Below are positions 5,265 through 18,319 of a DNA stretch of 64,000 nt, in pieces; position 1 is the stretch's first letter, and each line of letters opens with the position of its first letter. Origin of the DNA: Vibrio sp. JC009 (GTDB taxonomy: Bacteria; Pseudomonadota; Gammaproteobacteria; Enterobacterales; Vibrionaceae); contig NZ_CP092107.1 of assembly GCF_029016485.1 (NCBI RefSeq), forward strand, positions 1,302,001 to 1,366,000, given 5' to 3'. The notes below the pieces were generated by a model that saw only the letters and a list, made by a program, of their open reading frames with translations, did not search any database and was not told the origin of the DNA. The position numbers were made by a program, and so were the translations under genes.

Positions 5265-5311
5265 TGATATAATAATATCAATCAGTCGTTATTTTTGGTC
5301 TATATTGATAT
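5265..5311. promoter_or_regulatory. Dyad repeats upstream of hipB, probable autoregulatory operator
   Basis: tgatat-aata-atatca forms a perfect dyad at 5265-5280. The half site atatcaat (5275-5282) also pairs with attgatat at 5304-5311. HipB proteins bind paired palindromes in front of their own operon, so these repeats are the obvious candidates for repression by HipB-HipA. Assignment is by position and symmetry only. Confidence 0.5.
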
Positions 5312-5315
5312 GGTT

Positions 5316-5594
5316 ATGTCATTTAAGTCAACAAGTCAGATATCCAAAGAACTTGCTGCCAGCCTGAAAAAAAAGCGCATCTGGATGAAGCATAGCCGGG
5401 ACAAAGCGGCTGAGCTTTCCGGGGTTCCGGCTCCTACTATCCGGAGGTTTGAAGACACCGGAGAGATTTCATTTCGGCAACTACTGATGCTGACTCAGGT
5501 GTATGGCGATCTGTCCTGCTTCGAAGATATCTTTAGCCTGCCTAAAGCCCGAACTATGGATGAACTGATTAAGATGAAAGGAGGAGAACGATGA
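5316..5594 (+). CDS. hipB: HipB-like antitoxin, HTH (XRE type)
   Basis: Small Xre/Cro-type DNA-binding antitoxin of 92 residues if it starts at ATG 5316. ATG 5310 and TTG 5295 are also in frame, but the nearby dyad repeats overlap them, so the later start is preferred. The helix-turn-helix is seen in RDKAAELSGVPAPTIRRFEDTG. Its stop overlaps the hipA start by four bases (ATGA), and a strong GGAGGAG Shine-Dalgarno sits at its end, so translation of the pair is coupled. It should neutralise HipA and repress the operon. Confidence 0.82.
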   Translation: MSFKSTSQISKELAASLKKKRIWMKHSRDKAAELSGVPAPTIRRFEDTGEISFRQLLMLTQVYGDLSCFEDIFSLPKARTMDELIKMKGGER

Positions 5595-6838
5595 AGATCT
5601 TATCTGTTTTCTATCATGGTGATCCAAAAGAAAAGTCCATTTATGTCGGTCGACTTGCCTATGACGATAGTCGTGGATACTTTGAATATGACAGTGATTT
5701 TCTGAAAAGAGGCCTGCCTCTTTCTCCATTTCAACTGCACCCTCATGATCAACTGCAGGAAGCTAAGAGAGAGCCTTTTAACGGGATTCAAGGCGTCTTT
5801 AATGACTCTCTTCCTGATGGCTGGGGGCTTTATGTAATGGATAAGCACCTTCGAAAAAAAGGTGTTGATATCGATTCATTTACTCCAGTAGACCGTTTGG
5901 CATATATCGGAGACAGAGCCATGGGGGCTTTGTCTTATCAGCCGGATGAAGGAATAAAGTTATTTGATACTCAAGGTAAGCATATAGATCTGGATGGATT
6001 GGCTAAAGAGTCGATAGAGCTGTACACCGGTGAAACGGAAGAAGTGCTTAATCACCTGGCAATTAACGGCACGCCATCAGGTGGTGCCAGACCGAAAGCA
6101 CTGCTTGGGATAAATGGAGCGGAAACTATCTATGGTGCATACGATCTAGAACCAGGATTTGAACATTGGATAGCGAAGTTTCCGACAGGTACAAGCCCAG
6201 AAAAGAAATCAGAAGGTTCAATTGAATATCTGTACTCTCTTATGGCAAAGAGAGCGGGGATCGACTTTCCTGAAACCAGGCTGGTCTCAGGAACAGATGA
6301 CAATGCATACTTTCTTATCAAAAGGTTTGATCGCTTGAGTGATAACCAACGCGTGCATATGCATACTCTGGCAGGATTGGTTAATGCTAATTTCAGAGTC
6401 CCGGATTTTACATACGAAAGCCTGTTTAATGTATGTAAAGCAGTGACTAAATCGCATGCAGAGGTGAAAGAGTTATTCCGGAGAATGTTGTTTAATGTGA
6501 TAACCGGTAACCGGGATGATCATACCAAGAACTTTTCGTTTCTGATGGATGAGAAGGGAGCCTGGAAGAACTCACCAGCTTACGACATCACGTTTAACCC
6601 AGGTATTCAGGGTGAGCACTCAATGCTTGTTGGCAATTCAGGAAAAAATGTCTCTTGGGACGATATTAAGTATTTAGCCAATGTTGCGGATATAAAAGAA
6701 AAAGAGGCGCGTATTGTTGCTGATGAAGTGATTACATCAATAGAGCTCTGGAGAGCTGAAGCTAAGCACTTTAATGCTCCTCTAAGCCTCATTTCTGATA
6801 TATCACAATATATTGAAAAGCAGTTAAAGCGTTTGTAA
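5591..6838 (+). CDS. hipA: HipA-like serine/threonine kinase toxin
   Basis: Full-length HipA of 415 residues containing both the N-terminal subdomain and the kinase core, not the split HipS/HipT form. The glycine-rich loop is NGTPSGGARPK (159-169), and the catalytic and metal-binding motif NRDDHTKN (307-314) is intact, so the enzyme looks active. HipA of E. coli phosphorylates glutamyl-tRNA synthetase and causes persistence; other HipA-like kinases have other targets, so the target here is open. It overlaps hipB by four bases. Confidence 0.88.
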   Translation: MKILSVFYHGDPKEKSIYVGRLAYDDSRGYFEYDSDFLKRGLPLSPFQLHPHDQLQEAKREPFNGIQGVFNDSLPDGWGLYVMDKHLRKKGVDIDSFTPVDRLAYIGDRAMGALSYQPDEGIKLFDTQGKHIDLDGLAKESIELYTGETEEVLNHLAINGTPSGGARPKALLGINGAETIYGAYDLEPGFEHWIAKFPTGTSPEKKSEGSIEYLYSLMAKRAGIDFPETRLVSGTDDNAYFLIKRFDRLSDNQRVHMHTLAGLVNANFRVPDFTYESLFNVCKAVTKSHAEVKELFRRMLFNVITGNRDDHTKNFSFLMDEKGAWKNSPAYDITFNPGIQGEHSMLVGNSGKNVSWDDIKYLANVADIKEKEARIVADEVITSIELWRAEAKHFNAPLSLISDISQYIEKQLKRL

Positions 6839-7587: not shown

Positions 7588-7995
7588 ATGTCAGATGAAA
7601 AACTGGCGCTAGAGTGGATGCGCCAACAAGCTTGCAAGATTGATCCATACCTTGAAGACCCTTCATTTGAGGATTGTGTTGAAAGGATTGGCCCTGCTTT
7701 TAAAAAGGGAAAAAGTGTCGCTCAACTGAGATTTCTGCTGGGTGAAGCCGATCGCCGGGCTGGTGCGGCAGAACGCAAGCATGCTGCTCTAAAATTTGCC
7801 AAAGAAAAAAGCCCGAATGCCGGGCAGATTCTGCGCCTTCAAAGCAAACTTCAGCGAGTTGAACTGGCACTGAAATTAGCAACGGGTGACAGCAACATGA
7901 CCATATCTCAGTTCTGCGCGGAGTATGACGTAAGCAAGCGGGACGGCAACACAGCGTGGCATGAAAAACTGGTTCAGCAGAATAAGAAAAGGTAA
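7588..7995 (+). CDS. Hypothetical protein, charged and helical
   Basis: 135 residues, not recognised. It is rich in Lys, Arg, Glu and Ala, with a long predicted helical stretch (AGAAERKHAALKFAKEKS ... LRLQSKLQRVELALKLA), no signal peptide and no membrane segment. The stop codon is followed within a few bases by the first copy of a 124-base repeat that carries a terminator. If the block between the two repeats were removed, this gene would face the SnoaL-like gene at 15170 convergently. Confidence 0.7.
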   Translation: MSDEKLALEWMRQQACKIDPYLEDPSFEDCVERIGPAFKKGKSVAQLRFLLGEADRRAGAAERKHAALKFAKEKSPNAGQILRLQSKLQRVELALKLATGDSNMTISQFCAEYDVSKRDGNTAWHEKLVQQNKKR

Positions 7996-8119
7996 CTCCC
8001 CCCTTTGTCCTTAACCCGGCTTCAAATAGATAGCGGTAGCCTCGCAACCCGAGTTTGATTAGAGGCTACCTGTGTTTTTTTACTTCATTGACTGGGCAAA
8101 TTCGTTAAAGAACTTGTCT
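7996..8119. repeat. Direct repeat, left copy, with terminator and a relic of a SnoaL gene 3' end
   Basis: This 124-base segment matches 15087-15209 except for about four positions, one of them an extra T. It carries the hairpin described separately and then, on the minus strand, codons for DKFFNEFAQSMK plus stop. The intact SnoaL-like protein at 15170 ends in DKFFNEFVQSMK. Homology stops abruptly after 8119, so this copy holds only the last dozen codons of that gene. Confidence 0.92.
8035..8082 (+). terminator. Terminator hairpin inside left repeat copy
   Basis: Arms ggtagcctc (8035-8043) and gaggctacc (8062-8070) are followed by tgttttttt-like sequence. It serves the hypothetical gene ending at 7995. 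Confidence 0.7.
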
Positions 8120-8260
8120 TCACCAAGCGATTCTTATACCAAAAACATGATCTAGCCAGAATTCTTTCCAACATAATCCACAATAGAGAATATTTTCCTC
8201 CTTTTAGTGAAAATTAAAGCAAATAAGGAAAAAAACATCTATGACAAAATTCGTATAGTG

Positions 8261-8365
8261 TAGCCACTGATTTGAAACCACAGCAGCCTGGTATCCGGCG
8301 TACCCTGCCAACTGCTGGCGGTAATGTTTTCTGGTTCCTGAAAAGCAGGAACTAAGTGGCTAAGG
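8261..8365 (+). ncRNA. Candidate structured leader RNA (riboswitch-like) before cyuA
   Basis: About 100 bases just ahead of the desulfidase fold on paper into a junction. The closing stem is tagccact (8261-8268) with agtggcta (8355-8362). One inner stem is cagcag (8281-8286) with ctgctg (8312-8317), holding a small ggta/tacc hairpin. A second is gttcctg (8334-8340) with caggaac (8346-8352) around an aaaag loop. The 3' strand of the closing stem touches the aagg ribosome-binding site (8362-8365), so folding could mask translation. I do not recognise a known riboswitch class. The rest of the gap from 8120 to 8260 is AT-rich and probably contains the promoter. Confidence 0.45.
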
Positions 8366-8372
8366 TATAAAT

Positions 8373-9659
8373 ATGAAAACTGAACTTTGGAATAAGTTTA
8401 CCCGTATAGTAAAGAGAGATGTGGCTCCAGCATTGGGATGTACAGAGCCTGTATCTGTCGCGCTGGCTGGCGCAATAGCTATGCAAAAGTTGACTGGAGA
8501 AGTTAAAGCCATCGCAGCGTATGTTTCGCCGAATCTTATGAAAAATGGTATGGGTGTAGGGATTCCTGGTACAGGTATGGTGGGACTACCAGTCGCGGCT
8601 GCTATTGGTGTGATTGCGGGAGATGCTCATGCTGGTCTTGAAGTGCTTAAGGATATTACTCCCGCAGATGTTACCAAAGCGAAAGCGCTTCTGGAGCAAG
8701 GTTGTGTTTCAGTCGAGGTAGCTGATGTTAGTAGTGTGATTTATGCAAAAGTAGTTGTAGGCAATGGCGAAAAGTGTGTTTCGGTGACGATTGCAGACAG
8801 CCACACGCATGTCGTTTCTATTGAGGAAGATGGCATCACCACCTTTACCGATAGCACAAAAAATGATGCACCTGAGAAACCTGAAACCGATTTAATGCAT
8901 GGTGCCTGCCTCGCGGATATCTATGATTTCGCCCTGAATGCGCCACTGGAACAAATAGAATTTATCGAGCAGGCCTATCAGCTAAACGATGAACTTTCCC
9001 GTGAAGGTCTGGAACGTGAATACGGCCTGCAGATTGGTGCCACTTTTAAGCGTAATGTGGAAAGAGGGCTGCTGGCGGAAGGTTTAATGACCAACATTCT
9101 TTGCCGTACTTCTGCAGCTTCAGATGCCCGCATGGATGGCGCGATGAAACCAGCTATGAGCAACTCCGGCTCCGGTAATCAGGGGATCGCCGCAACCATG
9201 CCTGTTGTAGTAGTGGCAGAACATCTGAACCTAGAAAAGGAACAGATGATACGAGCACTAATGCTTTCACACCTGACAGCTATCTACATTAAGAGCTACC
9301 AGAACAAACTATCTGCGCTTTGTGGTGCAACCACTGCATCTATGGGGGCTGCAGCTGGGATGACCTGGCTGATGGGAGGAAACTTTACCCAAATTAGTTA
9401 CGCTGTCGGCAGCATGATAGGTGATATCTCCGGCATTATTTGTGACGGAGCGAAGTCTAGCTGTTCAATGAAAGTCTCCTCATCAGCGAGTGCTGCATTC
9501 AAGGCTGCGCTAATGGCTCTGGATGGAATCCGCGTGACCGGAAATGAAGGCATTGTGTCTGACTGTGTGGATCAATCAATACGTAATCTTTCTGCATTGG
9601 CCAACGGTGCCATGACGCAGACTGATGTCCAGATCCTGGATATCATGGTAAGTAAATAA
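8373..9659 (+). CDS. cyuA: L-cysteine desulfidase, CyuA/YhaM (UPF0597) family
   Basis: 428 residues, close to the E. coli protein length. The family breaks L-cysteine into pyruvate, ammonia and sulfide using a [4Fe-4S] cluster; serine dehydratase alpha chains share the fold. Likely cluster cysteines are seen in ALGCTEP (C23) and in CDGAKSSCSMK near the C-terminus. The start follows AAGG at 8362-8365. It is the first gene of a block containing RidA, a permease, a peptidase-like amidohydrolase and a phytochelatin-synthase-like protein, which supports cysteine from peptides as the substrate. A structured leader precedes it. Confidence 0.85.
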   Translation: MKTELWNKFTRIVKRDVAPALGCTEPVSVALAGAIAMQKLTGEVKAIAAYVSPNLMKNGMGVGIPGTGMVGLPVAAAIGVIAGDAHAGLEVLKDITPADVTKAKALLEQGCVSVEVADVSSVIYAKVVVGNGEKCVSVTIADSHTHVVSIEEDGITTFTDSTKNDAPEKPETDLMHGACLADIYDFALNAPLEQIEFIEQAYQLNDELSREGLEREYGLQIGATFKRNVERGLLAEGLMTNILCRTSAASDARMDGAMKPAMSNSGSGNQGIAATMPVVVVAEHLNLEKEQMIRALMLSHLTAIYIKSYQNKLSALCGATTASMGAAAGMTWLMGGNFTQISYAVGSMIGDISGIICDGAKSSCSMKVSSSASAAFKAALMALDGIRVTGNEGIVSDCVDQSIRNLSALANGAMTQTDVQILDIMVSK

Positions 9660-9699
9660 CTCTCTTTTTTAAAAAACAAACATAATCTGGAAAGAAAAA

Positions 9700-10074
9700 A
9701 TGAAACAAACAATAAATTGTGAAAACGCACCAGCAGCGGTAGGTCCATTTGTCCATGCTAAGCTTGTCAATGGTGTATTGTACACTTCCGGTCAGCTACC
9801 TATTGATCCAGCAACAGGTAAAATGCCTGAAAGTGTTGAAGATCAAACCAGACAATCTTTGGCAAATGTTGAAGCAATTGTGAAAGAAGCAGGACTAAGT
9901 AAAGAAGATATCTTCAAGACCACAGTGTTTGTGAAAGATCTAAACGACTTTGCAGTAGTCAACGGCATTTATGGTGAGTTCTTTGGTGATAACTTCCCGG
10001 CACGGAGCTGTGTTGAGGTAGCACGGCTTCCATTGGATGCTAAGGTAGAGATAGAAGTCATCGCCACCAAATAG
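9700..10074 (+). CDS. ridA: RidA-family enamine/imine deaminase
   Basis: 124-residue RidA/YjgF trimer-type protein with the characteristic SGQLPIDPATGKMP and a C-terminal RSCVEVARLPLDAKVEIEVIA including the active-site arginine. RidA hydrolyses reactive enamines such as 2-aminoacrylate. That intermediate is released when cysteine or serine is eliminated, which fits its place 40 bases after the desulfidase. A terminator follows. Confidence 0.93.
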   Translation: MKQTINCENAPAAVGPFVHAKLVNGVLYTSGQLPIDPATGKMPESVEDQTRQSLANVEAIVKEAGLSKEDIFKTTVFVKDLNDFAVVNGIYGEFFGDNFPARSCVEVARLPLDAKVEIEVIATK

Positions 10075-10090
10075 ATTAACAAACTTTTAC

Positions 10091-10119
10091 AAGCCCGGTT
10101 ATTTACCGGGCTTTTTTTT
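10091..10119 (+). terminator. Rho-independent terminator after ridA
   Basis: aagcccgg and ccgggctt arms around ttattta, followed by a run of eight T. It ends the cyuA-ridA transcript, so the permease downstream has its own promoter. Confidence 0.9.
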
Positions 10120-10301
10120 GTTACCACACATTAAAATAACCTATCAATTGCAAGCCTAATCATTCACTCTGTTTATCGTAAACATTCTCCTGGATAAATA
10201 GTAACCAATAATTCCCGTAATTATATTTATAATTAGCCCTCTGTTTATTACAAAACTCATCGTAACATTAGTTATTACTTATTAAGTTATTATTGATAAA
10301 T

Positions 10302-10328
10302 ATTTATGTGACATATATCCACATAAAT
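10302..10328. promoter_or_regulatory. Inverted repeat in the long region before the permease
   Basis: A perfect 9-base dyad, atttatgtg and cacataaat, has a 9-base spacer (10302-10310 and 10320-10328). The TGTGA element resembles a CRP half site, but the spacing is off by one from the consensus, so the bound protein is unknown. The whole gap 10120-10681 is very AT-rich and holds no gene I can support. It probably contains the permease promoter and a long 5' leader. Confidence 0.35.
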
Positions 10329-10681
10329 GCTGAGTGTTTTTTACGCACTGTATAAATATAGATTGTTCATTATTTGAATCAGGTCATAAAGTACAAGGCT
10401 CTTAATTATCCAAAAGATATTCAAGATCAAAGCCAAGAAAATATTCCATGAAATGAATGCATTTATAGAAAAAAATACTATTTTTATCGCAAAATGCAGT
10501 TATTGAGTGATTTTTTTCTCCATTCTAAAGAGTATGATTCTCTCGAATTAAAGGTGAAGCATTTAATACAGCTCCGTGGCTAAAACGTTCTACTCCTTTT
10601 ATAAGGGGAATAACCTTCTAACTGTTGCTTATTAAATGAACACAAAAACCACTATATAAGTTATTTAATTAAGGTTGATTT

Positions 10682-12007
10682 ATGACTGAAAAGCAAAAGA
10701 AGTTTGGGCTCTGGTCGATAGTCCTTCTGGGTTTTAACTCTATTATTGGCTCTGGTATTTTCCTACTACCAGCATCTCTTTATAAATTTGCTGGAGACTG
10801 GTCAGTAGCAATGGTATTTATTACCGGAGCAATAGTAGCTACTATTGCTCTATGTTTTGCAGAAGCTGCTAGTTATTTTAGTAAAAACGGGGCTGCCTAT
10901 GTATACACCAAAGAAGCTTTCGGTAAATTTGCCGGTTTTGAAGTTGGCTTTTTAAAATGGTTTATGCAATGTATTGCCTGGGCAGTAATGGCAGTGGCAT
11001 TCAAGAATATTTTGTCAAATACATTTGGGTTTGCTGACGATCAGTTACTTTGTAACAGTATTGTGGTTGGCACAATCGCTCTGTTAACTGGCGTTAACCT
11101 GCTTGGTGTTGATGCAGCGAAAATCGTAAACAACATTTCAACCATAGCTAAGATGCTGCCATTGGTATTCCTGATTCTGGTTGGCATCTGGCACATTACT
11201 CCTGAAAATATCATTCCAAATTCAGCAGTTAACCCAACTTATACTCTGAACTCAGAAACCATTATTTCAGCTCTGATCTTAGCCTTCTACTCTTTCACTG
11301 GCTTTGAAACATTCGGTACAGCCGCTGAAGATATGGAAGACCCTAAGAAGAACCTACCTCGCGCAATTTGCTTGTCTCTTGGTATTGTGATGATGTTCTA
11401 CGCGCTGGTTATGGCTGTAACTGTGGGTGTTCTTGGTGAGTCTGTTGCAGATTCAGGCACACCTCTTGCGGATGCGGCACGCGTTATTTCCGGTGATTTC
11501 GGATACTGGTTAATCACTATTGGTTCTATCGTATCTATCGGTGGTATCAATGTGGCTGCATCTTTCCACATCCCTCGTGCACTGCTTCCTCTTGCAGATG
11601 ACAAAATGATCCCAGAGTTCTTCGGTAAGAAGAATGACAACGGTATCCCAACTGTTGCGATCATTGCTTCATGCCTGGTTACTGTGCCAATTGCTCTGAG
11701 CGGTACATTTGCACAGTTAGCAATGCTGTCTGTAGCGGCCCGCTTCCTTCAGTACATTCCTACTTGCTTGAGCGTTCTTGTATTCCGTAAACGCTTTGCA
11801 GAAGACAAAGAAGTACAGTCTTCATTCAAAGCTCCGTTCGGTCCTGTATTACCAATCCTTGCTGTTGCTATCTGTCTATATCTTCTTGCAGACCAGCCAC
11901 CAATGAAGATTGCAGTAGGTCTTGGCTTTATGGCGCTTATCTCACCGCTTTACCTGATGGCTCAGAAGAAAGCAAAACAACTACAAGAAGCAAAAGCAGA
12001 AGCATAA
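10682..12007 (+). CDS. APC-superfamily amino acid permease
   Basis: 441-residue membrane protein with about 12 helices. The N-terminal family hallmark GFNSIIGSGIFLLPASL is the substrate-backbone loop of APC amino acid transporters, and GFETFGTAAEDMEDPKKNLPRA is also typical. AAGG sits ahead of the ATG. It lies between cysteine-catabolic genes and the amidohydrolase, so it may carry cysteine, a cysteine-containing dipeptide or glutamate; the substrate is not readable from sequence. Confidence 0.88.
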   Translation: MTEKQKKFGLWSIVLLGFNSIIGSGIFLLPASLYKFAGDWSVAMVFITGAIVATIALCFAEAASYFSKNGAAYVYTKEAFGKFAGFEVGFLKWFMQCIAWAVMAVAFKNILSNTFGFADDQLLCNSIVVGTIALLTGVNLLGVDAAKIVNNISTIAKMLPLVFLILVGIWHITPENIIPNSAVNPTYTLNSETIISALILAFYSFTGFETFGTAAEDMEDPKKNLPRAICLSLGIVMMFYALVMAVTVGVLGESVADSGTPLADAARVISGDFGYWLITIGSIVSIGGINVAASFHIPRALLPLADDKMIPEFFGKKNDNGIPTVAIIASCLVTVPIALSGTFAQLAMLSVAARFLQYIPTCLSVLVFRKRFAEDKEVQSSFKAPFGPVLPILAVAICLYLLADQPPMKIAVGLGFMALISPLYLMAQKKAKQLQEAKAEA

Positions 12008-12027
12008 GAGAAGGGAGAGTAACAGTC

Positions 12028-13194
12028 ATGCTCACGGTAACAGAAACATTTACTATTGATGAATCTTTGGCTCAGGAAGCCATTCAGTGGCGTCGTGATT
12101 TACACCAGATTCCAGAGCTGCGTTTTGACCTGTATAAGACACAGAAGTACCTGATTAATCTGCTAAAGGGTTGGGGTGTTGAGTATGAAACAGGTTACGG
12201 TAACACTGGACTGGTAGCCACAATTCCTGGGCAAAAACCAGGCAAAGTCATCGCTTTTCGCTGCGATATGGATGCGCTGCCAATGGACGATGAATCTGGT
12301 AAAGAGTGGAGTTCTGTCCATGAAGGATGCTCCCACTCCTGTGGTCATGACGGGCATATGGCTATTACTCTCGCCGCGATTAAATGCTTATCAGATCATA
12401 ATCACTTCAGCGGGTGCGTAAAAATCCTGTTCCAGCCAAATGAAGAGACTGGCCAGGGAGCTAAAGCGATGATGAAGGATGGCCTTTTTAAGGCCCATCC
12501 GTACAGCGAGCTTTATGGATTCCATAATATGCCCCGCCTGGAGGATAGAACCGTTCAGCTTAGATACGGCGCGACAACCGGTGCAGGCGAATGCTTTACT
12601 CTTTCGGTAACAGGGAAAAGTGGCCATAGCTCAGTACCGGAAAAATGCATCAACCCGATCAGTGTTGCATGCGAGATTGTCAACTTGTGGAACGAGATAA
12701 CCTCAGGTATTGAAAACAACATGGCCATTATTGCTACTTGTAAACTCAATAGTGGCACAACCATTAATGGTATTCCCGAGACGGCACAATCGGGTGGCAC
12801 TATGCGCTATTTTGAAGCTCATATTGCCGATTATATGAGGGACAAAATGCACTTCATTGCTCAGGAAGTTTGCCTGAAATATGGGGCAAGCTACGAGCTG
12901 AATTTTGAAATCCTCTGTCCTGCAACCGTGAATACTATTGAACACACAGATTCGGTTATTCATTGCGCAACAGATATCTATGGCACAGACAGTATAGTCA
13001 CTGATGTTGCCGCTTCTCCCGGCGGAGAAGATATGCAGTTCTTTGTAACTGAAGATGTCGAAGGAGTTTGCTGGTTTATGATCGGAACTAAAGGTACCAA
13101 CCTGCACACCTCAGCTTTTGACTTTGATGACACCTGCTTGTCAGATGCGGCCTCACTATTGGTTAGCATTGCAAGAAAACGGTTGTCTCATTAA
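12028..13194 (+). CDS. M20D-family amidohydrolase/peptidase
   Basis: 388-residue metallohydrolase of the hippurate hydrolase/N-acyl-amino-acid amidohydrolase group. Metal ligands are in FRCDMDALPM, SCGHDGHM and QPNEETGQG, and the dimerisation domain lies between about residues 180 and 290. No signal peptide is present, so it acts in the cytoplasm. AGGGAG precedes the ATG, 20 bases after the permease stop. The likely job is cleaving an imported amide or dipeptide, for example gamma-Glu-Cys or Cys-Gly (inference from neighbours). Confidence 0.87.
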   Translation: MLTVTETFTIDESLAQEAIQWRRDLHQIPELRFDLYKTQKYLINLLKGWGVEYETGYGNTGLVATIPGQKPGKVIAFRCDMDALPMDDESGKEWSSVHEGCSHSCGHDGHMAITLAAIKCLSDHNHFSGCVKILFQPNEETGQGAKAMMKDGLFKAHPYSELYGFHNMPRLEDRTVQLRYGATTGAGECFTLSVTGKSGHSSVPEKCINPISVACEIVNLWNEITSGIENNMAIIATCKLNSGTTINGIPETAQSGGTMRYFEAHIADYMRDKMHFIAQEVCLKYGASYELNFEILCPATVNTIEHTDSVIHCATDIYGTDSIVTDVAASPGGEDMQFFVTEDVEGVCWFMIGTKGTNLHTSAFDFDDTCLSDAASLLVSIARKRLSH

Positions 13195-13236
13195 ATCCAA
13201 TACATTTTAACACTATAATAATTGAGTAAATTAACT

Positions 13237-14013
13237 ATGAAACTATTCACAAAAGGGTCAATCCTTGCTGTTACTCTGGCAACCGCTTTTAACGCATTTG
13301 CCGCACCAGTCTATTTCGGAACAGGTGAAAGCTTTGACCGTCTGGTTTCCTCGCAGCACAAAACAGACTTTGCAAGACTGGCAAATTTTTATGAAGCACA
13401 GGAAAACAAAGTATTCTGTGGTGTGGCTTCTACTGTTATCGTGCTAAACGCATTAAAAGTGAAAGAACTGGATGCAGCCACAGAGATTCCTTACGACAAC
13501 AGCCTGGTTGCAACCCATGAAAAAGGCTATTTTCCGACTAAAAACAATTGGCAGCCATACTTTCACCGCTACACTCAAAACACAGTGCTAACCAAGTCAC
13601 CAAAAACACGCCTGGAGATCATGGGTAAACCAACTTCAGAATTCAATTTTAACGATTACGGATTACAGCTTGATCAGTTTGCTGCGCTCGTAGAATCAAA
13701 TGGCGCACATGTAAAGGCTGTTGAACTGGCTAAATTAGATGATATTAATTCAGTAAAACAAGATCTTATCAAAGCACTAGATAAAAAAGATAACTACCTT
13801 GTCATCAACTACGCACGCAAAGGTGTTGAGCAAAAAGGCGGAGGTCACTTCTCCCCTATTGCTGCATACGATCAAAAGTCAGACTCCTTCCTGGTTATGG
13901 ATGTGAACAGTTCTAAATACCCATGGGCATGGATCGATGCTGACCTTGTGATCAAGTCTATGAACACTAAAGATATTGATGCATATCGTGGCTACGCTGT
14001 AATCACCAACTAA
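13237..14013 (+). CDS. Exported phytochelatin-synthase-like cysteine peptidase
   Basis: 258 residues when started at ATG 13237, which gives a clean signal peptide (MKLFTKGSILAVTLATAFNAFA); TTG 13222 is an alternative. The papain-like catalytic triad of phytochelatin synthases is intact: Cys61 in VFCGVAST, His near 204 in GGGHFSPI and Asp near 222 in VMDVNSS. Bacterial members, such as the cyanobacterial enzyme, mainly cleave glycine from glutathione to leave gamma-Glu-Cys. The C-terminal metal-sensing domain of plant enzymes is absent. A periplasmic glutathione hydrolase role is an inference. Confidence 0.85.
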   Translation: MKLFTKGSILAVTLATAFNAFAAPVYFGTGESFDRLVSSQHKTDFARLANFYEAQENKVFCGVASTVIVLNALKVKELDAATEIPYDNSLVATHEKGYFPTKNNWQPYFHRYTQNTVLTKSPKTRLEIMGKPTSEFNFNDYGLQLDQFAALVESNGAHVKAVELAKLDDINSVKQDLIKALDKKDNYLVINYARKGVEQKGGGHFSPIAAYDQKSDSFLVMDVNSSKYPWAWIDADLVIKSMNTKDIDAYRGYAVITN

Positions 14014-14148
14014 TCACTTCTACTTATCTCGGGCTACTACTCCACAAAAGTAGCCTGTATGGAGGCAGCTCTGGTCTATCTACTCCAGGTTGCCTCTATT
14101 TCACACACTTTCAACCTATTAAAAATTAGCATAATTCCGGGAGATTTT

Positions 14149-15060
14149 ATGTCTGACACTCTATCGCTTGTCGTGCTTGATTCCGGCCTTGGTGGTCTTT
14201 CTGTACTTGCAGATTTGGCAGAAAAAATATCAAAAAGCAGCCCTAAGCCTATCGTCAATCTGACCTTCTTCAATGCCTGGCCAAGCCTGAAATATCCATA
14301 TAACCTTATGTCATCACAAGAACTAAAAACGAAGGTATTCAGTGACGCCTTATATGGAACCGAAGCATTTAATCCAGAAAAGGTTCTTATCGCCTGTAAT
14401 ACGTTATCTGTATTGCTTGGGCAAACTGAGTTTGCCCGTGAGAGTGATACCAAGGCAGTGGGTATCATAGAATACGGCGTTAACAGTATTTTGGACAAGC
14501 TAACAGACAACCCTGATAGCAAGGTGTTGATTGCTGCTACCCCAACGACGATTGAGGCAAACACACACAAAGAAGCCCTGTTAAAGGCAGGCATTAAAGA
14601 AGAAAGAATAATTACTCAATCGTATGGACGTCTAGCAGAAAAAATTGAATCAGATCCTGATAGCGATATCGTCCGTGAGTTGATTGAACAGTACACTCAG
14701 GAAGCTAAAACGAAAGCCCAACTAGGTGAAGAGGCTAAACTATATGCGGCCTTATGCTGTACTCACTACGGTTACAGTATGACGGGATTCCAAGATTCCT
14801 TAAATTCAATATTCAATCGGCATGTTGAAATTCTAAACCCAAATGATGCCATGAGTGAAGGCTCAATACCTGCAACGGAAACGCCACTATCCGATGTAAC
14901 AATAAATATAAAAGTGGTTTCCAGAGTACCAATTGAAGAAGATAAGATAGAGTCGATTGGTGCAATCATCAAGCGAGTTTCTCCTGCAACAGAAGTAGCG
15001 CTCAGGCAATATCTGCTCGATGAGAACCTGTTTAACTTTGATACAACGCTGTTTGAATAG
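14149..15060 (+). CDS. Aspartate/glutamate racemase-like protein
   Basis: 303 residues from ATG 14149, preceded by GGGAG. An upstream in-frame ATG at 14059 would add 30 residues lying across hairpins and is not favoured. The protein has the cofactor-free racemase pattern: LDSGLGGLSV at the N-terminus (as in MurI) and two catalytic cysteine motifs, IACNTLSV and ALCCTHYG. It is longer than MurI, with a divergent C-terminal third. Because it ends the thiol-peptide block, it may act on glutamate released from gamma-glutamyl peptides. Duplicate MurI function is the other possibility. Confidence 0.8.
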   Translation: MSDTLSLVVLDSGLGGLSVLADLAEKISKSSPKPIVNLTFFNAWPSLKYPYNLMSSQELKTKVFSDALYGTEAFNPEKVLIACNTLSVLLGQTEFARESDTKAVGIIEYGVNSILDKLTDNPDSKVLIAATPTTIEANTHKEALLKAGIKEERIITQSYGRLAEKIESDPDSDIVRELIEQYTQEAKTKAQLGEEAKLYAALCCTHYGYSMTGFQDSLNSIFNRHVEILNPNDAMSEGSIPATETPLSDVTINIKVVSRVPIEEDKIESIGAIIKRVSPATEVALRQYLLDENLFNFDTTLFE

Positions 15061-15086
15061 TTATCGGCTAAAACAATCAGTTTACG

Positions 15087-15209
15087 CTCCCCCCTTTGTC
15101 CTTAACCTGGCTTCAAATAGATAGCGGTAGCCTCGCAACCCGAGTTTGATTAGAGGCTACCTGTGTTTTTTACTTCATTGATTGGACAAATTCGTTAAAG
15201 AACTTGTCT
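15087..15209. repeat. Direct repeat, right copy, with terminator and intact SnoaL gene 3' end
   Basis: Near-identical partner of 7996-8119. It begins with the same ctcccccctttg, carries the same hairpin and continues into the last codons of the minus-strand SnoaL-like gene. Here the gene is complete, so this copy is joined to the ancestral neighbour. Confidence 0.92.
15126..15169. terminator. Terminator hairpin inside right repeat copy
   Basis: ggtagcctc (15126-15134) and gaggctacc (15153-15161) precede tgtttttt. It closes the racemase transcript; the hairpin is symmetric, so it may also act on the opposing SnoaL-like gene. Confidence 0.7.
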
Positions 15210-15736
15210 GATTTATATAAATCACCTGAGAAATTCTGTACGCGCTTTATCTTTCCGTCTTCGATTTGGTAAAGAAGAATCCAGTTCAGGTCAACATTGT
15301 CTTTCGTATTGGAACTCCAGCCACGGTGGGCATCGATAACATAGGTATCATTTGCCGCAAGGATCATTACTTCTGCAGCAAAACCGGCTTTACCTAACTG
15401 GTTGAAGAATGAAACAAACTCATCAACGCCACGCTTTGTGCCTGCTAACTGATGACGGCCGGGAACATGCCACTCCACATCTTCAGCAACAAACTGCTTC
15501 AGGGCTTCCATATCGCTCTTACCGTAAGCAGCAAAGAACCCCTGAACCACCTTTAGTGCACTGCTGTTTTCAGAGCCGGGAGCGACAGGGTTAGCAGGTT
15601 TTGGCCATAAAGCAGGATTATTTATTTCAACCGCATCCTGAGCTGCTTTCGGGTTTTCAACGGGTACGTCAGCAGCGAACGCAGTTGCAGAAGCCAGGCC
15701 AGCAAGTAGTAACGTACGAGTAACTAAGTTTCTCAT
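15170..15736 (-). CDS. Exported SnoaL-like/NTF2-fold protein
   Basis: 188 residues with a signal peptide (MRNLVTRTLLLAGLASATAFA). The SnoaL-like cone fold follows (VVQGFFAAYGKSDMEALKQFVAEDVEWHVPG ... GVDEFVSFFNQLG). The family binds or turns over small hydrophobic molecules; the substrate here is unknown. It is divergent from a LysR gene at 15900, which probably controls it. Its last codons form part of the 124-base repeat. Confidence 0.85.
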   Translation of the reverse strand: MRNLVTRTLLLAGLASATAFAADVPVENPKAAQDAVEINNPALWPKPANPVAPGSENSSALKVVQGFFAAYGKSDMEALKQFVAEDVEWHVPGRHQLAGTKRGVDEFVSFFNQLGKAGFAAEVMILAANDTYVIDAHRGWSSNTKDNVDLNWILLYQIEDGKIKRVQNFSGDLYKSDKFFNEFVQSMK

Positions 15737-15899
15737 CTTATGATTCCTCTAATTAATAGACCCATGTATATCGCTATCACCTGATAGCTTTGGATTATGA
15801 ATGATTTTATTCTAGGGTTTTCGGTGTACATTTCTAGATGACTTAGTCCTAATAGACTGTTAGTGTTTTCCTTACACAACAAGTCTCTGAGGTGGAACG

Positions 15900-16814
15900 A
15901 TGAAAGGTGCCGGTGCCAGCTATAACCAGATAGTGATATTTCATACCATTGCAAAAGAAGGGAGTATCCGGGGTGCGGCCCGGAAGCTTGAAATGGCGGC
16001 GCCTTCTATCAGCCAGTCTCTCAAGCTGCTGGAGACTAAACTTGGTCTGCCGCTGTTTAACCGTTCCACCCGTCAGATGAGCCTGACAGAAGCAGGAAAG
16101 TATCTGCTGGAGAACACCACTGAAGCGATTGCAACACTGGATTATGCTCTGGAGGGGGTACATGACCTCAGTAACGCTCCCTCTGGAAAAGTGAGCATGA
16201 CAGTGCCCCGGTTTGTTTATCAGAGCGTAATAAGGCCGATCTTTCCCGAGTTTTGCCGGTTGTATCCGGATATCGAACTGGAGATATCTGTCTCTGAAGC
16301 CTCCATTAATATTATTAAAGAAGGCGTTGATGCAGGCATTCGTTTCGGAGACCGAATTGAAGAAGGGCTGGTTGCCCGGAAGCTAACCCCGCCAATTCAG
16401 GAGGCGCTTTTTGCTTCTCCTTCATACCTGGAGAAGTATGGTACGCCTCAGTCGTTAGAGGATCTGGAACAACACAGGCTGATTCAATACCGGTTTGGTT
16501 CCTCTAACCGGCTTGCGCCGACGATGCTGGAGAAAAACGGCAGCACGGTTACCGTAGAAATGCCAAGTGCGATGATAGTTAACGATACGGATATCATCAT
16601 AGATGCGGCGATCGAAGGTATTGGTATCGGTCGTTTCCTTACCCCCCTGGTGGAAAAGTATTTCGACCAGGGAACACTTGTTCCCGTCCTGCGTTCCCAT
16701 TGGTATGAATATCCTGGCCTTTATCTCTATTTTTCTCAAAATAGTCAGAAAGCCCGCAGGATCCGGGTGCTTGTTGATTTTCTGATAGAGAATGCCAGGC
16801 TGATACAGAAATAA
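15900..16814 (+). CDS. LysR-family transcriptional regulator
   Basis: 304 residues. The winged helix-turn-helix is seen in GSIRGAARKLEMAAPSISQSLKLLETKLG, followed by the two-lobed effector domain. The CrgA/DsdC-like end segment HWYEYPGLYLYFSQ is typical. It is divergently placed from the SnoaL-like gene with a 163-base gap, the classic layout for a LysR regulator and its target. Confidence 0.92.
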   Translation: MKGAGASYNQIVIFHTIAKEGSIRGAARKLEMAAPSISQSLKLLETKLGLPLFNRSTRQMSLTEAGKYLLENTTEAIATLDYALEGVHDLSNAPSGKVSMTVPRFVYQSVIRPIFPEFCRLYPDIELEISVSEASINIIKEGVDAGIRFGDRIEEGLVARKLTPPIQEALFASPSYLEKYGTPQSLEDLEQHRLIQYRFGSSNRLAPTMLEKNGSTVTVEMPSAMIVNDTDIIIDAAIEGIGIGRFLTPLVEKYFDQGTLVPVLRSHWYEYPGLYLYFSQNSQKARRIRVLVDFLIENARLIQK

Positions 16815-16911
16815 ACTCATTGTTAGCGGAGCAACAGGTTTCGATATCTTCCATTACTGATTCTGGTAAACTCCGCGTTTCATCTTCAGCATTGCAGGAA
16901 TACCCATAAAT

Positions 16912-17133
16912 ATGAGCCAAGAGCAACCCAATAATCCACTACACGGTTTAACTCTGGAAAAAATCCTTGTGCGCTTACAGGAACACTATGGCTGGGAAGG
17001 TTTGGACGCACAAATACAGATCAACTGCTTCTACAATAATCCGTCAATTAAGTCGTCTTTGAAGTTTTTACGTCGGACCCAATGGGCAAGAGACAAGGTT
17101 GAAGCACTGTATATTGATACCTTCTGCAAATAG
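16912..17133 (+). CDS. VF530-family small DNA-binding protein
   Basis: 73 residues matching the VF530/DUF2132 pattern ([25 protein letters not shown] ... [26 protein letters not shown]). Members are small conserved proteins first described in Aliivibrio fischeri and thought to bind DNA. AGGAA precedes the ATG. Confidence 0.88.
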
Positions 17134-17178
17134 GAAAGTACAGCTTGTTTGAGTCTGATACCGCGCGAAGAGGAGACA

Positions 17179-17261
17179 GTTCAAAAAAACAGGCTGTTAA
17201 TTCTGTCATTAGTGGACAGAGGGACCGCCCGGCCTGTAGGCTAATTCTTCCTCTTTTGAAC
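17179..17261 (+). ncRNA. Nested hairpin ahead of a 42-residue reading frame
   Basis: Three stems nest in one arm-and-loop structure: gttcaaaa (17179-17186) with ttttgaac (17254-17261), acaggc (17189-17194) with gcctgt (17232-17237), and ctgtc (17203-17207) with gacag (17215-17219). No T run follows directly, so it is not an obvious terminator. It could be a small RNA or a translation-controlling leader. Confidence 0.35.
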
Positions 17262-17276
17262 GGAATTTAAAGATTT

Positions 17277-17405
17277 ATGTTATTTAAGATCATGCTGGCT
17301 GCTGTTTTTCTATCGTGCTTTTTCGCTGAAATCAATTTCGATGACAGAAAAGTAAACACCGCGGCCCGCTACCAGCTGGAAAGCTCTTTATGTGACAGCT
17401 GCTAA
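17277..17405 (+). CDS. Possible 42-residue exported or membrane peptide
   Basis: Short frame MLFKIMLAAVFLSCFFAEINF... ending in SSLCDSC. The N-terminus is a plausible signal or membrane segment, and a cysteine follows the hydrophobic core (FLSCFF). A weak ribosome site (ggaattt) precedes it. The family is not recognised. It lies between a structured element and a hairpin at 17412-17458. It could be chance, but no other gene fills this gap. Confidence 0.4.
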   Translation: MLFKIMLAAVFLSCFFAEINFDDRKVNTAARYQLESSLCDSC

Positions 17406-17465
17406 GGTTAAACGGCTTCTTTAGTTGTATGGTTTCTGAACAGATTCAGAATAAGAAGCCCGCTT

Positions 17466-18248
17466 ATGCCCCATTTCCCAAACTTTCCCCCTCTTGATCC
17501 GCCTTTATCGTATGCTGAGTACACCGATACTCTGCACATTGAACAAAGTGAAGCTCTACAATACCTTGATTCTGCAACCGCCGACTGGAGCGTTCCTGAC
17601 TCTCTTAAGCACAAAGTGAGGAACAACGGTGAACTGGCTCCTTTTTATGGCGACACTGTTGTTTTCATACTTCCTGAAGAGGCCCGTCAGCGAATTGGCG
17701 GTGTGATGGAGCGCCTTACTGCTTTACAGGAAATGCTTGCGGTTCCCCTTGATAGAAAGCAGTTGCACCTTACTCTGCATGATTTGTCGAATTCTCCGTC
17801 AGAGTTGCAGATAACAAGTCAGATCGCGCTGAATGAAGTCAAGGTAAAAGCGGTCATGAAAAGGATCTGGCACTACTTAGAGCTGCACCCAGATCAAAGA
17901 AAAATAAAAATGGTGTCGAGCAGCGTTTACCCCTGCCTCAATATATCGGTTTTATTGGGTTTTAAACCTAAAACTGAGCAGGACTTCAATAAACTGATTA
18001 ACCTTTATCGTCTTTTCGATGAAGTGGTTTATCTTGATTACGGGTTCAGACCTCATGTCACGCTGTCATATTTTGCTCCGCGGGTTATGAACAGAGATGA
18101 AATAGTAAAGCTAAGCGGCCTGTTAAAGGATCTGAACAGAGGCAGTATTGAGCTGGAACTTGATATGTTTGATATCGCGTATCAGCACTTTTTTAATATG
18201 AACCATTACGAGACGCTGTTTACACTGAAAGGCCCAGTCGTTAACTGA
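17466..18248 (+). CDS. 2H (LigT-type) phosphoesterase-like protein
   Basis: 260 residues. Two HxT motifs of the 2H phosphoesterase superfamily are present: LHLTLHD and PHVTLSY, about 120 residues apart. Members act on 2',3'-cyclic phosphates, 2'-5' linkages or related RNA ends. It is longer than LigT/ThpR, with an N-terminal extension of about 90 residues, and closer to bacterial uncharacterised members. Substrate unknown. Confidence 0.75.
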   Translation: MPHFPNFPPLDPPLSYAEYTDTLHIEQSEALQYLDSATADWSVPDSLKHKVRNNGELAPFYGDTVVFILPEEARQRIGGVMERLTALQEMLAVPLDRKQLHLTLHDLSNSPSELQITSQIALNEVKVKAVMKRIWHYLELHPDQRKIKMVSSSVYPCLNISVLLGFKPKTEQDFNKLINLYRLFDEVVYLDYGFRPHVTLSYFAPRVMNRDEIVKLSGLLKDLNRGSIELELDMFDIAYQHFFNMNHYETLFTLKGPVVN

Positions 18249-18319
18249 AGATAAGCTGGAACCCATTGCCGGTGAATCCCAGTGTGTTTCTGCATTTAAC
18301 GATCAGGCGCTTTGGTAAA

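Follow-up and report, generated by a model that had tools for sequence, protein, structure and literature searches.

A block of 7.1 kb in the genome of Vibrio sp. JC009 carries six genes, all on the + strand, between two near-identical direct repeats (here called R). The block is probably a small island without a recombinase of its own that was inserted where two convergent genes share their 3′ end, one for a conserved protein of 135 amino acids (aa) and the other for a SnoaL-like protein. The analyzed window is a stretch of 64 kb (contig NZ_CP092107.1, positions 1,302,001 to 1,366,000), and all coordinates are positions in this whole window (Table 1). Insertion is favored by parsimony and rarity and is unproven. 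Judged by their families, the six genes probably form a module for the breakdown of a thiol (sulfur-containing) peptide.

The two copies of R lie in direct orientation. A pairwise alignment contains three substitutions and one T indel within a T run. About four differences had been counted in a preliminary description of the sequence, the coordinates of which are exact. The likeness ends at both edges, and the sequences beyond R are unrelated. Aligned locally, the flanks of the block reach a score of 226, compared to a maximum of 28 among 100 single-base shuffles, and no further direct repeat of at least 40 nucleotides (nt) was reported in the window. The left edge of R directly adjoins the stop codon of the 135-aa gene, and its right edge lies 40 nt within the SnoaL-like gene.

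Each copy harbors a 9-bp hairpin (GGTAGCCTC/GAGGCTACC) with a loop of 18 nt that is followed by a TGTGTTTTTT(T) tract on the + strand. The left hairpin could terminate transcripts of the 135-aa gene, and the right hairpin those of the racemase-like gene of the block, each of these genes lying to the left of the respective copy. The folding of R as a whole does not exceed that of shuffled sequences (z −1.23, with 21 of 200 shuffles equally good), and the pattern-based terminator scan, which only covers loops of 3–8 nt, omits the hairpin. On the minus strand, both copies encode the C-terminal residues of the SnoaL-like protein (DKFFNEF(V/A)QSMK-stop), and the right copy alone runs on into the complete gene. 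The hairpin, the last codons, and the single whole gene at the right end were all found as first described. Two of the three substitutions fall into the SnoaL codons, and one of them accounts for the Val of the complete gene versus the Ala of the orphan tail. Alignment by eye places Ala at this position in four of the seven SnoaL homologs read (P0002, P0003, P0004, and P0006). Since the closest homologs (P0002, P0003, and P0004 with 84, 81, and 78%, respectively) all carry Ala, the orphan tail probably retains the older residue. This fits with a tail that came with the incoming DNA, or with a resident gene that changed once the duplication had occurred.

Among the genomes searched, whole R is confined to this locus. 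When the own genome (5,210,079 bases, three contigs) was searched with lenient settings, R came up twice, beside ten other matches of 14–32 nt, the best with an E of 0.196. Among 227 Vibrio species genomes, own genome included, five are matched at E 0.01; whole R occurs only here, in two copies, and the remaining four genomes contain stretches of 20–32 nt only.

The proposed insertion starts from an ancestral order of 135-aa gene, R, and SnoaL-like gene, which would have been a convergent pair with one terminator region. The six genes would have arrived on DNA (probably circular, or an excised island) in which they were linked to a single R. One crossover of this R with the resident R would then insert the block, with an R on either side and an undamaged SnoaL-like gene as the outcome. 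The crossover may have been catalyzed by a recombinase in trans or one that was later lost, or may have proceeded by RecA recombination across 124 bp, and the sequence cannot distinguish between these agents. The reverse crossover would release the block as a circle. Insertion is supported by the duplication of R only here, by its clean edges, and by the left SnoaL tail, which reads as an intact 3′ end and has the Ala of the three closest homologs. It is further supported by the absence of block genes from the flank neighborhoods of relatives and by the rarity of the phytochelatin-synthase-like (PCS-like) gene of the block, which is present in 8 of the 227 Vibrio genomes and, in an order-wide sample of 345 genomes, in 2 (both counts include the own genome). 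The neighborhoods were fetched as 20-kb regions, nine around the SnoaL-like gene (eight from Vibrio and one from G042, a member of another family) and nine, out of 70 relatives, around the 135-aa gene; block genes were found in 0 of 9 of either set.

Several findings weigh against insertion. An empty site was not seen among the 227 Vibrio genomes. Homologs of the 135-aa gene are found in 71 of them (E 1e-5) and homologs of the SnoaL-like gene in nine (E 1e-20), own genome included, and both flanking genes are listed together in the own genome only; therefore, no empty site is readable. A query from the right flank (15880–18250) matched 74 of the 227 genomes, mostly via one small open reading frame (ORF), and the listed places, inspected by eye, are all more than 20 kb from the 135-aa gene, with a shortest distance of ∼31 kb in G062. 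R was not found in the other 226 Vibrio genomes, the phage collection, or the plasmid collection, and has therefore no known use as an attachment site; its exact hairpin is without a match in viral contigs. In Pfam and NCBIfam scans, none of the six block proteins came up as an integrase or transposase. The genome contains 15 matches to the tyrosine-integrase domain (PF00589), of which the nearest on the replicon is a 141-aa frame ∼142 kb off; serine recombinases and transposases were searched for within the block only. The G+C content of the block is within the local range (window positions 1–30000) except for an AT-rich spacer near 10.1–10.7 kb, and its cysteine desulfidase (CyuA) groups weakly (80/57) with the paralog of the own genome and eight other sequences. 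Three of the seven SnoaL homologs lack the Ala (Leu in P0005, Phe in P0008 and P0009).

The preliminary description had proposed an insertion at a gene 3′ end, likened the repeats to attL/attR, and noted that no integrase or transposase is present inside. The last point stands, as all six proteins were assigned to other families. The insertion itself agrees with the anatomy and the rarity of the block and is left without an empty site. The attL/attR comparison holds for repeats at a gene 3′ end and is otherwise an analogy, given the distance to the nearest integrase and the lack of R as a site elsewhere.

Two more specific forms of insertion can be distinguished. R may represent the true attL and attR of an integrase-type element without its integration module, i.e., a cis-mobilizable remnant, which is entertained tentatively. 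The site at a gene 3′ end, the restored gene, and the one terminator-like hairpin per copy agree with such an origin, and the recombinase activity could be supplied in trans from the integrase-domain matches in other parts of the genome. However, the block proteins include no integrase (short frames in the spacers were listed and not family-scanned), and R was not encountered as a site in any other place. Measured against integrase-type islands, direct repeats at a gene 3′ end are present and the cargo is sporadic, while an integrase beside the repeat is absent. Cis-mobilizable elements are integrase-less remnants of integrative elements that have attL and attR at a gene 3′ end and only carry cargo. 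The block shares these attL/attR-like repeats and the cargo-only content with them, whereas an integrase-bearing relative with matching sites was not found. Alternatively, the block may have entered by a Campbell-type RecA insertion across R from a relative in which R already lay beside the block, which is entertained with equal reserve. Vibrios take up DNA, and a crossover over 124 bp needs RecA only, but the first joining of R to the block is left unexplained.

A local rearrangement without any insertion is unlikely. The block would already have been situated beside the SnoaL-like gene, and the SnoaL 3′ end with its terminator would have been copied leftward, e.g., as the leftover of a tandem SnoaL duplication of which the remainder was deleted. 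A short duplication requires no mobile element, no empty site was found, and the flanks are together here and were not seen together in relatives. On the other hand, duplication and deletion would have to end exactly at the left edge of the block by the stop codon of the 135-aa gene, and none of the nine fetched SnoaL neighborhoods of relatives contains block genes. Improbable as a whole is the boldest reading of the locus, a mobile recombinase-less island of 7.1 kb that is still excisable via R and holds a complete, undescribed route from an extracellular glutathione-like peptide to sulfide, assembled repeatedly in Vibrio with different cysteine desulfidases. The remaining candidates were rejected: a dispersed element, as considered in the preliminary description, or a unit flanked by insertion sequences is ruled out by the two genome copies of R, with none whole in other Vibrio, and by the lack of a transposase among the block proteins; a phage or plasmid site by the unmatched R in both collections (an 8.4-kb region is also unmatched in plasmids); an integron attC by a DNA fold with z 0.37 and an incomplete match by eye to what we take to be the attC core consensus; and a tRNA target by a window without tRNA.

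Insertion of a cargo-only block has a known counterpart, the microcin H47 island of E. coli, and the block would be a new example of this kind of island. The H47 island is reported to comprise 12.6 kb between imperfect direct repeats (148 and 144 bp) and to have no recombinase gene; its excision and integration were detected by polymerase chain reaction, and many E. coli strains are reported to harbor its sites (PMC5426353, PMC3191183). The H47 island resembles the block in being small and cargo-only, with long imperfect direct repeats and no recombinase gene inside. In contrast to the H47 sites, whole R is present in 1 of the 227 Vibrio species genomes, and the block is known from sequence alone and carries a different cargo. 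Provided that the insertion is real, the locus is a clean case of a cargo-only block that enters a chromosome via a short common gene end with no recombinase of its own.

Neither the age nor a distant source of the block can be read from its sequence. The copies of R differ at 3 of 123 aligned positions (2.4%), which is compatible with an event long past as well as with a recent import of a copy that had diverged. The divergence leaves the event undated because the incoming copy may already have differed, and the fairly recent event that had been proposed does not follow from it. A second CyuA is encoded on the same chromosome (C2:689610–690893) and is 79% identical to that of the block. Since the desulfidase of the block groups with this paralog and with relatives, distant transfer is not indicated, and a distant donor is not supported. 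From the “transferred catabolic island” of the preliminary description, the catabolic look of the cargo families remains; the Vibrio-like desulfidase and the local G+C content speak against a transfer from afar. When clustered at 90% identity, the SnoaL-like and the racemase-like proteins each stand alone, and the desulfidase cluster has two member sequences from one contig.

Table 1. Positions of the repeats, the block genes, and the neighboring features in the 64-kb window.
Feature	Position	Strand	Remarks
135-aa conserved protein, left flank	7588..7995	+	function not assigned by family scans
Left repeat R	7996..8119	no strand	124 nt; forward terminator-like hairpin and orphan last 13 codons of SnoaL-like gene, stop counted
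Predicted leader before cyuA-like gene	8255..8372	+	118 nt; minimum free energy −42.5, z −3.06; three-way junction
L-cysteine desulfidase-like protein (CyuA)	8373..9659	+	SDH_alpha PF03313; solved L-cysteine desulfidase 9he0, E 2.8e-30
RidA-family enamine/imine deaminase	9700..10074	+	PF01042; TIGR00004 above cut-off
Terminator-like site 3′ of RidA gene	10091..10113	+	consensus match only
APC-family amino-acid permease	10682..12007	+	PF13520, E 2e-50
M20 peptidase/amidohydrolase	12028..13194	+	PF01546; TIGR01891 above cut-off; YxeP 1ysj
PCS-like cysteine protease	13237..14013	+	PF05023; signal-peptide-like N terminus (by eye)
Glutamate-racemase-like protein	14149..15060	+	PDB glutamate racemases, E 2.4e-8; TIGR00067 below cut-off; no Pfam
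Right repeat R	15087..15209	no strand	123 nt; hairpin 3′ of racemase-like gene; also 3′ end of the complete SnoaL-like gene
SnoaL-like/NTF2-like protein, right flank, complete	15170..15736	−	PF12680
LysR regulator	15900..16814	+	divergent from SnoaL-like gene; family scan

The families of the block can be arranged in a putative pathway. An exported PCS-like protease would trim glutathione or a related peptide, and the APC permease would take up the product. The M20 enzyme may then free cysteine from the imported product. The desulfidase would degrade this cysteine to pyruvate, sulfide, and ammonia; the reactive enamine may be cleared by RidA. The PCS-like protease retains Cys, His, and Asp in the stretches aligned with Nostoc Alr0975, in columns that we take to be catalytic. 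The glutathione-like substrate is presumed from the glutathione chemistry of Alr0975-type proteins, and it counts against this assignment that no result fixes glutathione or a relative as the substrate. The CyuA-like protein has no NCBIfam match, and the permease exceeds the cut-off of no NCBIfam model among the 25 listed of 34. The terminator-like site behind the RidA gene belongs to a scan that found 9 such sites, compared to 7.5 expected.

Related clusters are found in a few other genomes. The PCS-like gene is joined with the permease, M20, RidA, and CyuA genes in four of its eight Vibrio carriers (own genome, G168, G061, and G212), and no other block gene is located within the fetched 20 kb in the other four (G201, G091, G020, and G144). 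G168, G061, and G212 share five of the six block families; their gene order (permease-M20-PCS-RidA-CyuA) differs from the block, and the flanking genes of the window are absent from the fetched stretches. Their permeases are 82–83% identical to that of the block, their CyuA proteins 43–46%, and CyuA from G168 and G061 is placed far from the block CyuA in the tree, which does not include that of G212. Given these distances, different desulfidases have therefore joined the same partners. Because different desulfidases accompany the same permease, peptidase, and protease, the clusters are good evidence for a shared pathway of these proteins with the desulfidase. The position of the PCS-like protease beside a permease, an M20 enzyme, and a cysteine desulfidase in several genomes points to thiol-peptide feeding, not metal binding. 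No description of such a phytochelatin synthase-cysteine desulfidase gene cluster was seen among the papers listed in literature searches.

Four of the families also occur in Parendozoicomonas callyspongiae (L127) in the order CyuA-permease-M20-PCS, with a CyuA that is 53% identical to that of the block. The racemase-like gene was not seen in the clusters of G168, G061, G212, or L127 (in L127, over 238 nt past the PCS gene), and none of the four has an R-like repeat. The cluster flanks share short direct matches above shuffles in loci L013 (46 versus 31) and L014 (49 versus 36) and no match above shuffles in L017 and L127. A pattern scan of genome contigs with the PCS-like protein gave 66 matches, of which 0 were confirmed. 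The cyuA-ridA pairs of Vibrio and Photobacterium, as seen in Photobacterium indicum (L104), G203, and L185, have the same order as in the block, whereas the block adds the permease, M20, phytochelatin-synthase-like, and racemase-like genes. PCS-like genes on plasmids (3 of 12 records, from Pantoea, Vibrio, and Salipiger) have no permease-M20-desulfidase neighbors in the gene lists, which are incomplete. The Pantoea stewartii plasmid NZ_CP017591.1 (L203 5995–9749) contains a phytochelatin-synthase-family gene ∼2 kb from an aspartate/glutamate racemase gene, and these two families are neighbors in the block as well. The Salipiger plasmid has an amidohydrolase-family gene ∼4 kb from its phytochelatin-synthase-like gene. 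In G212, two tRNA-like repeats are located ∼2 kb from the cluster (L017 7723–7802 and 8155–8234); they are near-identical and, read by eye, have a GCA (Cys) anticodon.

The predicted leader upstream of the block cyuA is matched in stability by 1 of 200 shuffles. It has no Rfam match and only short matches in the genus DNA search and the fetched loci. A conserved cyuA riboswitch was rejected, as the leader was not seen by eye in 32 other upstream regions (82 loci have a cyuA-like gene). A palindrome similar to AGAAAATNNTTTCT is located at 8180–8201, at most ∼200 bp upstream of cyuA, and similar palindromes lie within the same distance ahead of cyuA-like genes in a number of Vibrio, Photobacterium, Shewanella, and Psychromonas loci (several of L104–L119, by eye and uncounted). 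It is perhaps a candidate regulator site. The short direct matches in the flanks of L013 and L014 are small palindromes. These palindromes of ∼27–45 nt (TATACC...GGTATA or ATACCA...TGGTAT) bound the related cluster in G061 and G168 (L014 6633–6783 and 12406–12453; L013 9357–9400 and 15052–15095, with a further copy in L013). The loose ATACCA...TGGTAT pattern has one match at the left end of the block (8136–8294) and others elsewhere in the window. These palindromes are not taken as evidence for movement.

Outside the block, the 135-aa protein is unmatched in Pfam, NCBIfam, and PHROGs at E 0.001. The LysR gene adjoins the SnoaL-like gene in five of nine fetched relatives (L050 and L052–L055). 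A 73-aa ORF follows at 16912–17133, the DNA of which is matched in ∼70 of the 227 Vibrio genomes. An RNA-like conserved stretch at 16858–17139 was rejected, as it overlaps this ORF and has no Rfam match. A HipB/HipA-like pair, labeled by reading and not by family search, is located ∼0.75 kb to the left of the 135-aa gene (5295–6838).

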